Shown: one piece after another, positions 1,722 to 9,593 of the stretch
Layout: each line of letters starts with the position of its first letter
How positions within the stretch are numbered: the stretch's first letter is position 1
Assembly (NCBI GenBank): GCA_005884305.1
Contig: VAYL01000026.1
Coordinates: 1 to 14,226 of the forward strand
DNA length: 14,226 bases
Reading direction: 5' to 3'
DNA from: Actinomycetota bacterium
GTDB lineage: Bacteria; Actinomycetota; Thermoleophilia; Solirubrobacterales; 70-9
Program-made: the position numbers and the translations under genes
The notes under the pieces: model-generated
Databases searched by the model: none
Told to the model about the DNA's origin: nothing
Seen by the model: the letters and a program-made list of their open reading frames with translations, nothing else

Positions 1722-2723
1722 TTACGCCGCGAGTGCGGGCGCCTCGACGACCTCGCGGAGCAGGCTTCGCGCCTGATCCAGGTCCTCGGTGCGCTGGAAC
1801 GCGTCGGCCTCGCTTCCGGTCACGCCCAGTCGCTCGAGGTACCAGGGGTAGAACTTGCGCGCGTAGTGAGCCGCGCGGCGCGGTCCGAGGTGCCGCTCGG
1901 CGCGATCCAGCGTCCACAGCAGCTCGCGGACGATCTCGTCGTCGGTCGGCGGTGCTGCCCGCCTCCCCGTGAGCTCCTCGAAGATCCACGGGTTGCCGAG
2001 CGCGCCGCGGGCGATCATCACAGCGTGTGCCGCGGATTCGCGGTACGCGCGGCGTGCGACCTCCGCTGTGGCCAGGCCGCCGGAGACGATGACGGGCGCG
2101 CCCGATCCCTCGAGGCGATCCACCAGCTGTCTGACCAGCCCGTAGTCGGGATCGCCCTTGTGCTGCACCGCCGCGCTCCGAGGGTGAAGCGCGATCCCCG
2201 ACACCTGCGCCTCCTCCACGAGCCGTACCGCGAGATCGACCCCCGAGCAGTCACCGGGCTTGAGGCCCGAGCGCAGCTTCACCGTGACCGGAAGCCCGGA
2301 GCCCTCGCCAGCCGCTCGCGCCAGCGCCACCGCGAGGCCGGGTCGGCGAAGGAGCTCGGCTCCCGCGCCCGCCTTCCGGACCTTGCGTACCGGGCACCCC
2401 ATATTGATGTCGATGAGATCGGCGCCGGCTTCGGCGACCACGGCGGCGCCGGAGGCCATGACGTCCGGGTCGTGACCGAAGAGCTGAATCGACACGGGAT
2501 GCTCAGACGGGTGAATCCGGAGCAGCTCCCGCATCGTGCGCTCGTTGCGGTAGTGGAGCCCGAAGCTCGAGACCATCTCCGAGACCGCAAGGCCCGCCCC
2601 GTGGCGCCGGGCCTGAAGCCGCACGAACCAGTTGCCGATCCCCGCCAGGGGCGCGAGCAGAACGCGATTGGCGATCTCCAGGTCGCCGATGCGAAATGGC
2701 GCTGTGAGAGGTGGTTGGTTCAC
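1722..2723 (-). CDS. dus: tRNA-dihydrouridine synthase (DusB-like)
   Basis: FMN/NADPH enzyme that reduces uridines to dihydrouridine in the tRNA D-loop. The 333-residue protein has the TIM-barrel start ANRVLLAPLAGIGN (18-31), the catalytic cysteine C110 in INMGCPVRKV, a VKLRSG strand with K149, and the late phosphate-binding ARGALGNPWIFEEL (238-251). Two usual motifs are altered: the common HGRT-type stretch reads HPRS (180-183), and the common NGDI-type strand reads SGGL (214-217). The start is GTG at 2723 with no Shine-Dalgarno; instead heptad repeats sit directly upstream. The gene follows coaX by 59 nt. The family is secure; the exact subfamily (DusB versus other bacterial Dus) is inferred. 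Confidence 0.93.
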   Translation of the reverse strand: MNQPPLTAPFRIGDLEIANRVLLAPLAGIGNWFVRLQARRHGAGLAVSEMVSSFGLHYRNERTMRELLRIHPSEHPVSIQLFGHDPDVMASGAAVVAEAGADLIDINMGCPVRKVRKAGAGAELLRRPGLAVALARAAGEGSGLPVTVKLRSGLKPGDCSGVDLAVRLVEEAQVSGIALHPRSAAVQHKGDPDYGLVRQLVDRLEGSGAPVIVSGGLATAEVARRAYRESAAHAVMIARGALGNPWIFEELTGRRAAPPTDDEIVRELLWTLDRAERHLGPRRAAHYARKFYPWYLERLGVTGSEADAFQRTEDLDQARSLLREVVEAPALAA

Positions 2724-3602: not shown

Positions 3603-4385
3603 ATGGCCGCGGCCGACCAGCTCGACGCGAAGCTCTACGTCATCCCCGGCTCGCATCCCGCGATGGCGGCACGGCGGATGCTGGAGCTCAAGGGGATCCC
3701 GTATCGGCGCGTCGACCTCATGCCGGTGATCTCGCGCGGCGTGCTGCGCGGGTTGCGGTTTCCGTCCAACACCGTCCCGTCGCTGTCGATCTCCGGCCGC
3801 AAGCTCACGGGCTCGCGCGAGATCGCCCGCGAGCTAGACGCGCTGCGACCCGAGCCGCCGCTCTATCCCTCCGACCCGGAGCGACGGGTGGCCGTTGAGG
3901 ACGCCGAGCGTTGGGGCGAGGAGGTGCTCCAGCCGGCGGTCAGGCGCATCCTGTGGAACGCGCTCAAGCGAAACCGGGCGCCGCTTGCAAGCTATGCGCA
4001 GGGGGCGAGGTTGGGATTGCCGATCGGGCTCGCGGTGAAGACCGCCGCCCCAATCGTGGCAGCCGCCAGCCGGATGAACCGCGCAGGCGACGACACTGTG
4101 CGCCATGACCTCGCCTCGCTTCCCGGCTGGCTCAAGCGGATCGACGATTGGATCGAGGAGGGCGTGCTGGGGTCAGATCCTCCCAGCGCCGCCGACCTGC
4201 AAATCGGCGCGAGCCTGCGGCTCGCGATGACACTCGACGACCTGCGCCCTGCGATCGCGGAGCGGCCGGCCGGTGAGTTGGCGGTCCGGGCGATTCCCGA
4301 ATTCCCGGGGCAGGCCCCCCCGGTGCTGCCGCCAAGCTGGCTGGAGCCGGTGCGCGAGGTTCAGGCAGCGACCGCCGCGAGCTGA
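3603..4385 (+). CDS. Glutathione S-transferase-like protein
   Basis: A 260-residue protein with an N-terminal thioredoxin-like domain (about 9-82) and an all-helical C-terminal part (about 95-230). KLYVIPGSHPAMAARRMLELKG-like order, the cis-proline site TVPSLSISGRKL (P59) and GSREIA (70-75) follow GST topology. SAADLQIGASL (195-205) is the usual helical-domain N-cap region. The GST ES pair at the glutathione site is GS, and no N-terminal cysteine is present, so the thiol substrate and reaction are open; actinobacteria generally lack glutathione. The ATG at 3603 is the only nearby in-frame start; a GGAGG lies 18 nt upstream, which is rather far. It is the only plus-strand gene here, divergent from coaX, and ends 9 nt from the folK stop. 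Confidence 0.8.
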   Translation: MAAADQLDAKLYVIPGSHPAMAARRMLELKGIPYRRVDLMPVISRGVLRGLRFPSNTVPSLSISGRKLTGSREIARELDALRPEPPLYPSDPERRVAVEDAERWGEEVLQPAVRRILWNALKRNRAPLASYAQGARLGLPIGLAVKTAAPIVAAASRMNRAGDDTVRHDLASLPGWLKRIDDWIEEGVLGSDPPSAADLQIGASLRLAMTLDDLRPAIAERPAGELAVRAIPEFPGQAPPVLPPSWLEPVREVQAATAAS

Positions 4386-4394
4386 CACCGGGGT

Positions 4395-4964
4395 CTACAG
4401 CGAGCCGGTTCGGTTGATGCGCTGCCCCGGCCCGAGCCCCTCGAGGGAGTCGGCGAGGCGGGTTCCGTCGGGAAGCCTGAGCTCGGAATCGAGCTCCAGG
4501 AGGGGAGCCAGGACGAAGCGCCGGCGCTTCACCTCGGTGTGCGGAAGCGTTAGGCGATCGGTGCTGAGCTCCACGTCTCCGAGCAGCAGCAGGTCCACGT
4601 CCAGCGGCCGCGGGCCGTGCCGCTGGCCGCCCGCCATCCGCCCTTCCTCGACCTCGATGGCCTTGCAGAGGTCCAAGAGCTCCTCGGGCTCGAGGTCGGT
4701 TCGGATCCGGATCGCGGCGTTCAGGAAGTCCGGCTGGTCGAGCACCTCCCCCACCGGCTCGGTCTCATACAACGAGGAGACCGCGTCAACCTCCACCCCG
4801 TGCTCGCGCAGCGCCGTCACCGCCGCCCGGAGGTGGCCCTCCCGATCCCCGACGTTCGAGCCGAGCCCGAGGTAGCCGACGCGCTCGAAACCAGCCGCGC
4901 CCGTTCCGGACGGACGCTGGGGCTGGTTTCTCGCACCGCTCGCATTCCGGGCTCGCTGACTCAC
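4395..4964 (-). CDS. folK: HPPK (FolK) with a palindrome-encoded N-terminal extension
   Basis: Transfers pyrophosphate from ATP to 6-hydroxymethyl-dihydropterin in folate synthesis. The 189-residue protein has YLGLGSNVGDR (31-41), YETEPVG (66-72), the metal-binding RPLDVDLLLL segment (119-128; D122 and D124) and LPHTEVKRRRFVLAPL (140-155). Family members normally begin within a few residues of the GLGSN strand. Here about 28 extra residues precede it, including RNQPQRPSGTGAAGF (12-26) encoded by a palindromic element shared with hpt. The GTG start at 4964 overlaps the folB stop as GTGA. No other in-frame start codon occurs before GLGSN, so the extension must be translated if the gene works. 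The 3' end lies 9 nt from the convergent GST-like gene. Confidence 0.95.
   Translation of the reverse strand: MSQRARNASGARNQPQRPSGTGAAGFERVGYLGLGSNVGDREGHLRAAVTALREHGVEVDAVSSLYETEPVGEVLDQPDFLNAAIRIRTDLEPEELLDLCKAIEVEEGRMAGGQRHGPRPLDVDLLLLGDVELSTDRLTLPHTEVKRRRFVLAPLLELDSELRLPDGTRLADSLEGLGPGQRINRTGSL
4885..4932 (-). repeat. Protein-coding palindromic element, copy 1 (in folK)
   Basis: This 48-nt unit matches 9514-9561 at 43 of 48 positions. Outer arms GAAACCAGCC/GGCTGGTTTC (4930-4921 and 4896-4887) form a perfect 10-bp stem. After a 3-nt bulge, GCGTCCGT/ACGGGCGC adds 8 pairs (one G-T) around a 5-nt loop. It is read in the folK frame as ARNQPQRPSGTGAAGF. The element lies about 33 nt after the start codon, so the RNA hairpin could also influence translation. 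Confidence 0.85.
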
Positions 4965-6617: not shown

Positions 6618-6637
6618 GCTACCGCCGGGCGCGAACC

Positions 6638-6690
6638 GCGGGTCGAGTGAATCCGTTCCCGGAAAGCGGGACTGGATTCACTTGACCCGC
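6638..6690. repeat. Tandem palindrome, copy 1
   Basis: The arms 6638-6654 and 6674-6690 (GCGGGTCGAGTGAATCC and its partner) pair over 17 nt with a single mismatch. An inner TCCCG/CGGGA stem sits around GAAAG. It is related to the palindrome at 6711-6759. No T-run follows on either strand, so an intrinsic terminator is unlikely. It resembles REP-type intergenic palindromes. Confidence 0.8.
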
Positions 6691-6710
6691 CAATCTGCGG
6701 GGTGATGTGC

Positions 6711-6759
6711 GGGTCAAGTCAATCCACGCCCACCTGTCGGGCGCGGATTGACTTGACCC
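6711..6759. repeat. Tandem palindrome, copy 2
   Basis: The perfect 15-bp arms GGGTCAAGTCAATCC (6711-6725) and GGATTGACTTGACCC (6745-6759) enclose an inner CGCCC/GGGCG stem. Compared with copy 1, the arm position that reads G there reads C here, and the partner base changes with it, so pairing is kept. The start-to-start distance of the 49-nt cores is 71 nt. Both copies lie downstream of ftsH. Confidence 0.85.
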
Positions 6760-6846
6760 ACCGATCAGCGCCGACGCTGCCCTACGCAGCCTCAATCACG
6801 CGGGCAGCGCTGACGCGGCCGGGGCTCGCAAGGCGAAGGAGTGGGG

Positions 6847-8969: not shown

Positions 8970-9593
8970 CTAAGCGCCGGCTTGTGCCTGGTCTGTCTGC
9001 GCCAACACGGCGACGTAGTCGAGGTTTCGGTACCTCTGTGCGTAATCGAGCCCGTATCCGATCACGAAGCGGTTGGGGATCTCGAACCCCACGTAGCGGA
9101 TCGGAAGGTCGACCCGCCTGCGCTCGGGCTTCGTGAGCAGGGCACATACCTCTAGCGAGGCCGGATTCCGGGCCCGCAGGTTCCGTAGGAGGTAGTGGAG
9201 CGTGAGGCCGGAATCGATGATGTCCTCCACGATCAGGACGTCCCGGCCCTCGATCGACGAGTCCAGGTCCTTCAGGATGCGAACCACGCCCGAGGAGTCG
9301 GTCTCCGAGCCGTAGCTCGAAACGGCCATGAAGTCGATCTCGCATGGGACCTCGAGATGGCGCATGAGATCCCCTAGAAACAGGACCGCCCCCTTGAGGA
9401 CCCCGATCAGGACGAGGTCACGGCCTTCGTAGTCGCGGCTGATCTCGGCCGCCAGATCGCGGACCCGGCGCTGGAGCTCATCCGCCGGGACGAGCGTCTC
9501 GCCGATCGCACTATCGAAACCAGCCGCGCCCGCTCCTGACGTGCGCCGGGGCTGGTTTCTCACGCGCTCGCCGTCCGAGGCTCGCTCGTCCAT
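8970..9593 (-). CDS. hpt: Hypoxanthine phosphoribosyltransferase with palindrome-encoded N-terminus
   Basis: Purine salvage enzyme converting hypoxanthine (and often guanine) plus PRPP to nucleotides. The 207-residue protein has GVLKGAVLFLGDLMR (64-78), SSYGSETDSSG (92-102, the flexible catalytic loop) and the PRPP-binding VEDIIDSGLT (122-131), then KPERRRVDLPIRYVGFEIPN with K155. Family members usually begin near IGETLV (30-35). Here about 28 residues precede it, including RNQPRRTSGAGAAGF (12-26), nearly the same peptide at the same positions as in FolK. Starts at ATG 9593 or GTG 9563 both include the element, and none occurs after it. It follows tilS by 27 nt and precedes ftsH by 140 nt, the classic tilS-hpt-ftsH order. 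Confidence 0.96.
   Translation of the reverse strand: MDERASDGERVRNQPRRTSGAGAAGFDSAIGETLVPADELQRRVRDLAAEISRDYEGRDLVLIGVLKGAVLFLGDLMRHLEVPCEIDFMAVSSYGSETDSSGVVRILKDLDSSIEGRDVLIVEDIIDSGLTLHYLLRNLRARNPASLEVCALLTKPERRRVDLPIRYVGFEIPNRFVIGYGLDYAQRYRNLDYVAVLAQTDQAQAGA
9514..9561 (-). repeat. Protein-coding palindromic element, copy 2 (in hpt)
   Basis: The second copy of the 48-nt unit at 4885-4932. The outer 10-bp stem GAAACCAGCC/GGCTGGTTTC (9559-9550 and 9525-9516) is identical. The inner stem GCGCACGT/GCGGGCGC retains most pairs, with one A-G mismatch and a terminal T-G. It is read in the hpt frame as VRNQPRRTSGAGAAGF. The five differences from copy 1 lie in the bulge, inner stem and loop; the outer arms do not vary. 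Confidence 0.85.

Follow-up and report, generated by a model that had tools for sequence, protein, structure and literature searches.

An apparently mobile 72-nucleotide two-hairpin element read in frame within unrelated protein genes of a Solirubrobacterales-like actinobacterium

The folK and hpt genes of a Solirubrobacterales-like actinobacterium share an in-frame unit of 72 nt (24 codons), which is probably a non-autonomous mobile element, active in recent times and inserting, mostly at CGA, into coding DNA; from comparison of sequences, we give this reading a probability of about 0.8. The window, that is, the whole stretch of 14,226 nt that was analysed, is contig C191 of genome G000 (2.35 Mb in 268 contigs, 73% complete), which we take to be a fragmented metagenome-assembled genome; its lineage name follows the label of homologues in database records (“Solirubrobacterales bacterium”). 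The first-pass annotation of the window had described a 48-nt palindrome common to the two genes, and this match holds (4885-4932 against 9514-9561, both on the minus strand, 90% over 48 nt; family D7). The boundaries then given were too narrow: the palindromes are the 3′ part of a unit comprising a short hairpin (HP1), a GTGA linker and a long hairpin (HP2), which accounts for residues 3-26 of each protein. The features of the window are as follows.

4395-4964, minus strand: folK, with a GTG start at 4964-4962 that overlaps the stop codon of folB (GTGA)
4885-4956, minus strand: folK copy of the 72-nt unit, codons 3-26 of FolK (QRARNASGARNQPQRPSGTGAAGF), lacking in relatives
4887-4930, minus strand: HP2 of the folK copy, with a 10-bp outer stem, a 3-nt bulge, an 8-bp inner stem and a 5-nt loop
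4938-4956, minus strand: HP1 of the folK copy, a short stem with a tandem G-A mismatch, from alignment and covariation
8970-9593, minus strand: hpt (hypoxanthine phosphoribosyltransferase), ATG at 9593-9591, Pfam PF00156 from residue 38
9514-9585, minus strand: hpt copy of the 72-nt unit, codons 3-26 of Hpt (ERASDGERVRNQPRRTSGAGAAGF); the empty site of a congener reads VDDSAIGE
9516-9559, minus strand: HP2 of the hpt copy, from folding
9566-9585, minus strand: HP1 of the hpt copy, from alignment and covariation
9586-9588, minus strand: left CGA beside the hpt insertion, the right CGA being 9514-9516
4173-4178, plus strand: empty site in a GST-like gene (3603-4385), between Ser191 and Asp192; the metagenomic protein P0241 has a 24-residue insert
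2715-2723, minus strand: empty site at codon 2 of a dus/nifR3 gene (1722-2723); the metagenomic protein P0245 has a 24-residue insert

The hairpin geometry proposed earlier was reproduced in folK, where the 48-nt unit folds at -31 kcal/mol (z -5.1; none of 200 shuffles as good), and in hpt with one inner mismatch (-26.9 kcal/mol, z -3.3; 1 of 200 shuffles as good). The peptide pattern RNQPxRxSGxGAAGF was likewise found at residues 12-26 of both proteins in identical phase, as RNQPQRPSGTGAAGF in FolK and RNQPRRTSGAGAAGF in Hpt. Reading of the frames bears out that no start codon lies between the element and the fold, the Pfam HPPK domain beginning at FolK residue 31, and translation of hpt could also begin internally, at a GTG within its copy. 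Three other features of the window were observed. Two adjacent strong hairpins at 6633-6766 (GCGGGTCAAGTGAATCC type, arms 75-88% complementary), in the gap between a lipoprotein-like gene and ftsH, look like a second palindromic repeat family. A palindrome built on CAGGTAGCAGGTAG and CTACCTGCTC lies between dus and the next gene (about 2729-2785), and the frame of a gene resembling lysyl-tRNA synthetase breaks at about 341-430, perhaps by an assembly or sequencing frameshift.

The genome-wide search for further copies, which had been set beforehand as a test of the palindrome, was carried out in steps. A gapped pattern found five copies in G000, and a first covariance model, built from nine copies, found 18 places there at E < 0.001. 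Alignment of the flanks extended the conservation about 28 nt upstream of the 48-nt palindromes, and a second covariance model spanning both hairpins (18 sequences) identified 19 copies in G000 and two in the congener G003; the search of 48 further genomes of the family yielded none. These counts are lower bounds, because the covariance searches scored 94-150 candidates per genome, with strict filters where more than 40 genomes were searched. With 19 copies in G000, the pair of palindromes in the window is not a product of chance. Run against 60 relatives, the first model recovered the copy in G003 (E 1.7e-7); its remaining matches were weak, the best having an E value of 0.0015. The exact pattern gave no match among viral contigs and 28 single matches, all in unrelated organisms, in a species-genome collection, a scan that may omit near relatives of G000; the best of these (29 bits against model R1) was judged by inspection to be a chance match to the stem. 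HP1 alone was matched in 44 of 232 genomes of the order, and nearly all of its matches outside G000 and G003 were taken as chance on the basis of their loops; none of the four inspected matches with a similar loop adjoins a tRNA. An HP1-like 23-mer, CGAGCGAGCCTGGATGGCGAGCG, was also observed in a genome from another family of the order, away from tRNA (L232, G132:C34, 1064-1086).

The HP1 hairpin consists of GCGAGCC, a loop mostly of the GGAnGG type and GGCGAGC, and contains a tandem G-A mismatch; HP2 has a 10-bp outer stem, a bulge of 3 or 4 nt, an 8-bp inner stem and a 5-nt loop. A MITE would have terminal inverted repeats and a target site duplication; the inverted repeats here are internal hairpins, and the CGA shared by the two sides is exact on the left in 11 of 18 G000 copies. 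When 18 copies were aligned (17 of G000 and one of G003), pairing was retained in 92.5% of the cells, and 14 of the 23 pairs showed changes on both sides. None of 500 shuffles reached any of five covariation measures and slid structures paired at 32-41%, in a comparison that favours the structure, since it was derived from the same copies. The covariation includes HP1 (three of its five pairs), which is not the favoured single-strand fold by energy, and can also come from template switching that perfects palindromes. Two copies in tandem (L016 and L017, G000:C33:5334-5485) have a common CGAAC junction, and their HP1 is fully Watson-Crick (ACCAGCC/GGCTGGT) in place of the G-A mismatched form.

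The net insertion is usually 72 nt long. It has this length in 13 of the 18 aligned copies, the others being 71 nt (nadB and the ResA-like gene), 70 nt (L021), 76 nt (L023) and 74 nt (the G003 copy); L017, outside this alignment, is also 72 nt, and 14 of the 18 G000 copies compared, the copy at tRNA-Thr being left out, have this length. Among the copies read in sense, 11 of 13 are 72 nt net and the other two 71 nt. In L006, L012 and L019, the length is kept because the loss of one base in HP1 is offset by the gain of one elsewhere. The left triplet is CGA in 11 of 18 G000 copies (TGA, GGA, TCA, CCA or GCA in the others), and on the right CGA is found in every copy except three, of which two have CGG and one an alignment gap.

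Thirteen of the 19 copies in G000 lie in sense within genes, nine N-terminal, two internal and two C-terminal. The contexts, which were placed by hand with gene names that are partly presumed, are as follows.

N-terminal, sense: folK, hpt, nirA (sulfite/nitrite reductase), recG, a Mrp antiporter subunit, an uncharacterised ORF on C247, nadB, lon and a ResA-like gene
Internal, sense: a luciferase-like monooxygenase, and a RodZ-like protein between its HTH and membrane segment
C-terminal, sense: a wecA-like gene and an inositol-monophosphatase-like gene
Antisense: two copies in tandem on C33 and one on C145, the C-terminus of the gene ending inside the element
Between genes: one copy between a response regulator, whose stop codon is in HP1, and its kinase
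Intergenic or unplaced: one copy on C193, near a run of N
At a tRNA: one copy at tRNA-Thr

We presume the identities of nirA, recG, lon, nadB, mrp, the wecA-like, IMPase and ResA-like genes from conserved motifs, and likewise those of the response regulator and histidine kinase, folB, ftsH, lysS and rplO/rpsE. Pfam supports FolK, Hpt, the luciferase-like protein, the RodZ-type HTH, the Dus protein P0245 and a glycosyltransferase (P0242); P0241 has no Pfam match and takes its GST label from its source. The recurrence of one unit, in frame, in unrelated genes supports, at the level of sequence, a family of inserted repeats, which agrees with the earlier proposal of an independent family of protein-coding palindromes. 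The element is without a match in Rfam, and no such family for this bacterial group appeared among the top matches in the open PMC literature.

The further suggestion that the family targets N-termini stands as to the bias, with nine of the 13 sense copies N-terminal, two internal and two C-terminal; the N-termini may be either targeted or merely tolerant of the element. The first six codons hold seven of the 13 sense copies, for which a uniform model with genes of 950 nt gives 1e-9, a statistic that does not separate targeting from selection as the cause. Two frames of the consensus unit are free of stop codons, and the TGA of the linker closes the third. This TGA is kept in none of the four copies in which it would fall in the stop phase (nirA, recG, mrp and rodZ) versus 11 of the 14 other G000 copies (Fisher p 0.011, ignoring shared ancestry and with the tRNA-Thr copy outside the comparison); the loss supports translation of the element rather than proving it, because the copies in mrp, recG and folK seem to form a single subfamily. 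The N-terminal copies of nadB and the ResA-like gene, both 71 nt, have an in-frame GTG inside the element, and these genes may therefore start within it.

It is very unlikely that the element is a regulatory mRNA hairpin upstream of mis-called starts, its residues being left untranslated. Nine of the 19 copies lie at 5′ ends, and the text available from a study of REPs warns of this very situation for N-terminal cases (PMC3733652). The folK and hpt genes, however, have no in-frame downstream start; copies are also internal (in the luciferase-like, RodZ-like and GST proteins) or C-terminal; and homologues differ by exactly 24 residues after conserved first residues. For these three reasons the caution appears to be answered, by sequence and not by measurement.

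Orthologues without the element show the empty form of the site. The Hpt proteins of three congeners, whose start codons were picked by eye, begin VDDSAIGE, MNDSAIGE and VDPAIGE, all without the 24 residues. The sulfite reductase (nirA) begins MEPTAVEQ in two congeners and MEPTAVQQ in a third, and in G000 reads MEPTAT, 24 residues and then EQ. FolK was found in two congeners and is without the insert in each, and the N-termini of recG and nadB are too diverged for comparison with relatives. The luciferase-like protein has no close orthologue in the relatives searched, and its empty state is for this reason drawn from the reading frame only. When proteins were searched with the element peptide in all three frames, six were found at E ≤ 1 among 182 candidates: a GST, a glycosyltransferase, two ABC ATPases, a Dus protein and one Hpt. 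Compared with P0241 and P0245, respectively, the GST and dus orthologues in the window show a gap of exactly 24 columns in both cases. A native N-terminus was rejected on account of the empty sites in hpt, nirA, GST and dus.

The comparison of N-termini asked for by the first-pass annotation gave the same answer on a larger scale. Within the best 120 of about 8,000 Hpt homologues, the insert is present in 14 (13 with the full 24 residues) and absent in 106; for FolK, the best 120 of about 8,000 comprise three with the whole insert, 106 with none, eight with only six residues matching HP1 (e.g., MSERAPDGERVGYLG) and three that begin inside what resembles its last residues. The eight FolK homologues P0144, P0155, P0156, P0164, P0175, P0181, P0185 and P0215 have six extra residues (e.g., RAPDGE) after MSE, which is what an in-frame deletion of HP2, or insertion of HP1 by itself, would leave. 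It is scarcely credible that these residues are an ordinary native N-terminus shared by descent or chance: they do persist in 14 of the best 120 Hpt homologues, but the same DNA lies in unrelated genes and most of the listed orthologues are without it. Neither of the two outcomes named beforehand as refuting the first-pass reading was obtained, as the genome has more copies and the majority of listed orthologues are without these residues. In the Hpt carriers of a full insert, the insert is 38-79% identical to that of the window and the core 83-93%, and its length is constant. On a quick tree of 72 cores, the presence of the hpt insert changes at least nine times, and a single clade of carriers is rejected (p-AU 0.0009); the group was chosen after viewing the rows, and P0002, P0008 and the rows after P0074 were left out. 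One set of identical Hpt cores includes proteins with and without the insert. Gain and loss at hpt cannot be told apart on this tree.

The insert would seem to be tolerated by the proteins. In an AlphaFold model of FolK (33 sequences; mean pLDDT 75.9), residues 1-25 are the sole stretch with pLDDT < 50 and the first strand starts at residue 28, and the remainder matches HPPK structures (top TM 0.92 by target). The insert is thus predicted to be a disordered tail, since low confidence is confined to these residues and the rest is HPPK-like, and the FolK fold is predicted to be intact. Seemingly, the element leaves its host proteins unbroken.

The end of the element points to its source. The right arm and end of HP2, GGGCGCGGCTGGTTTCGAAC, are the antisense of the 3′ end of tRNA-Val(CAC), from the T loop outwards, for which genes are present in G000 (C170:695-766), G003 (C41:6776-6847) and also G001. 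The match is 16-20 of 20 bases in 17 of the 18 aligned copies, the indel-shifted L021 scoring 9. Furthermore, three copies are located at tRNA sequences. One of G003 lies inside a 3′ fragment of tRNA-Val, with a 22-nt stretch of the tRNA end repeated at its flanks; those at tRNA-Thr(CGT) on C46 of G000 and at tRNA-Ile(GAT) in G003 are flanked by direct repeats, of 24 and 27 nt, respectively, of their own tRNA 3′ ends, and ARAGORN still detects both tRNA genes. The flank thus differs between coding copies (three bases) and tRNA copies (22-27-nt repeats). The Val and Thr copies each measure 74 nt from one repeat to the next, compared with 103 nt for the Ile copy. In the tRNA-Thr copy (L174), HP2 is the tRNA-Thr end together with its complement and HP1 is the constant part; in the tRNA-Ile copy, HP2 is not that palindrome. 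Judging from these three copies, it is HP1 with GTGA that stays constant, whereas the palindrome changes with the tRNA in two of the three. The copies at tRNA sequences look like intermediates, and the coding copies may represent an amplified tRNA-Val lineage whose inner stem is better paired. Repeated tRNA-Val 3′ halves were also observed in G003, at L125 (G003:C41:1-9000) and L155 (G003:C16). In L125, a conserved block (162 nt; two of the blocks are 91% identical) that ends in a hairpin comes after each half, and genes rich in internal repeats lie between some of the halves, a cassette-like array at tRNA-Val that brings an integron to mind.

Two accounts of the movement take the tRNA end as their starting point. 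A tentative one is that a tRNA-Val-specific tyrosine integrase moves the element in trans, the element itself being too short to encode such an enzyme. A mini-integrative element of this kind, in which folding of the strand restores a core site in double-stranded form, in the manner of an integron attC, for recombination at secondary sites containing CGA, is possible but not probable. Searches for mobility genes, which took in PF01797 and PF00589, found in G000 a gene for a tyrosine integrase, truncated where its contig ends and lying some 0.1 kb from the tRNA-Val(CAC) 3′ end; among 18 other loci examined (of 43 other matches), three are within 1.5 kb of tRNA-Val, two of these being tRNA-Val(CAC). 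The repeats of tRNA 3′ ends around the tRNA-located copies, and an HP1 joined without HP2 to the tRNA-Val 3′ end at G003:C16:4226, also fit this account. However, G003, which has element copies, gave no integrase match at E 1e-15, and relatives of the integrase occur in 26 of 61 genomes, mostly where no element was found, so that the integrase is a candidate only. A shared core of three bases, moreover, would be unusual for tyrosine integrases. A doubtful account dispenses with an enzyme: single-stranded DNA at replication forks would undergo foldback synthesis or template switching and so spread the element, whose palindrome would be a tRNA 3′ end copied by snap-back. The HP2 of L174, made up of tRNA-Thr sequence with the layout unchanged, is what such copying would leave, and the covariation fits palindrome correction; yet the constant HP1, the length of 72 nt in 14 of 18 copies and the recurrent site in hpt suggest a defined reaction.

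A third account relates the element to REPs of the GTAG and CGTC types, which the available part of one paper describes as short hairpins, mostly intergenic, the GTAG type being linked to the RAYT transposase; REPs also occur within ORFs, where dimers encode 20-30 residues and a share lie at N-termini (PMC3733652). Mobilisation by such a Y1 transposase is unlikely here, although a short tag (GTGA) precedes a hairpin that is often at gene ends, and REPs inside genes are known from the same partial source. The element differs from these REPs in lacking the GTAG and CGTC tags, its linker being GTGA or a variant, and in being a 72-nt unit of two hairpins. PF01797 had no match in G000 (73% complete), where no RAYT was found, nor in G001 and G002, and its sole match in G003 is on a 5.2-kb contig suspected to be foreign.

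Returning to the mobile element, we suggest that the family would descend from a tRNA-targeting element whose end captured a tRNA 3′ end, and that it may move in the form of DNA, the hairpins serving as the substrate. In genes, copies would persist because the unit keeps the frame, has stop-free frames and lands in disordered N-termini, linkers or C-terminal tails. Against the mobile-element reading stand the left CGA, exact in no more than 11 of 18 G000 copies, the greater length and different HP2 of the tRNA-Ile copy, and the contrast in flanks between coding and tRNA copies. It is tempting to speculate, with the odds against it, that a mini-element both derived from and targeting tRNA, which a recombinase with tRNA targets moves in the form of a folded single strand, was retargeted to CGA just after start codons and became a protein-coding palindrome.

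Protein-coding palindromes are described chiefly from Rickettsia and Wolbachia, and the present element resembles the Wolbachia ones, as partly described, in being an in-frame palindromic repeat of unrelated genes. According to the available excerpts, Rickettsia palindromic elements (RPEs) lie in frame in unrelated conserved genes and also in tmRNA and RNase P RNA, with a length of 105-146 bp (PMC2229807) or about 150 bp (PMC10969869), and the former paper calls the way in which such small elements move an open question (PMC2229807). The element shares with RPEs its in-frame position in unrelated protein genes (13 of 19 in sense) and its presence at RNA genes. By contrast, it has 72 nt and two hairpins, compared with the single long stem-loop with terminal inverted repeats of the RPE, a tRNA-matching end, another phylum and a high G+C content; by length and two-hairpin layout it is not an RPE, as far as the descriptions set them apart. 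The enterobacterial repeats RU-1/ERIC, RU-2 and RU-3 (103-168 bp, intergenic, some in genes) are, in the abstract that describes them, likewise small and mobile and add residues to proteins, but that abstract gives them no tRNA end (PMC2759123). The mitochondrial genes of Nematomorpha, in the part of the report available, contain perfect repeats of up to 284 bp (PMC6649704), which resemble the element in being inverted repeats inside protein-coding genes.

The tRNA-located copies invite a further comparison. Elements that integrate into tRNA genes by tyrosine recombinases carry the tRNA 3′ end as a direct repeat on either side, and the tRNA can stay intact. All three tRNA-located copies are flanked in this way and the coding copies are not. 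The element is unlike them in its body of about 50 nt between the repeats (two of the three tRNA copies), in having no genes and in its many copies away from tRNA.

The element thus adds an unrelated, high-G+C palindrome family with a recognisable source (a tRNA 3′ end), a unit of 24 codons and matched empty and filled sites. Because the source sequence, the defined unit, the empty and filled sites and the tRNA copies are all at hand, its origin and mobility are directly testable; the HP1 hairpin, the 72-nt unit, the tRNA-matching right end, the tRNA copies and the empty sites of the window all go beyond the earlier reading. The insertions constitute a natural series showing where proteins tolerate 24 extra residues. 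If the retargeting of a tRNA mini-element proves true, this would be, to our knowledge, the first family of the kind whose origin can be identified, and would show in-frame “selfish peptides” arising from integration sites.
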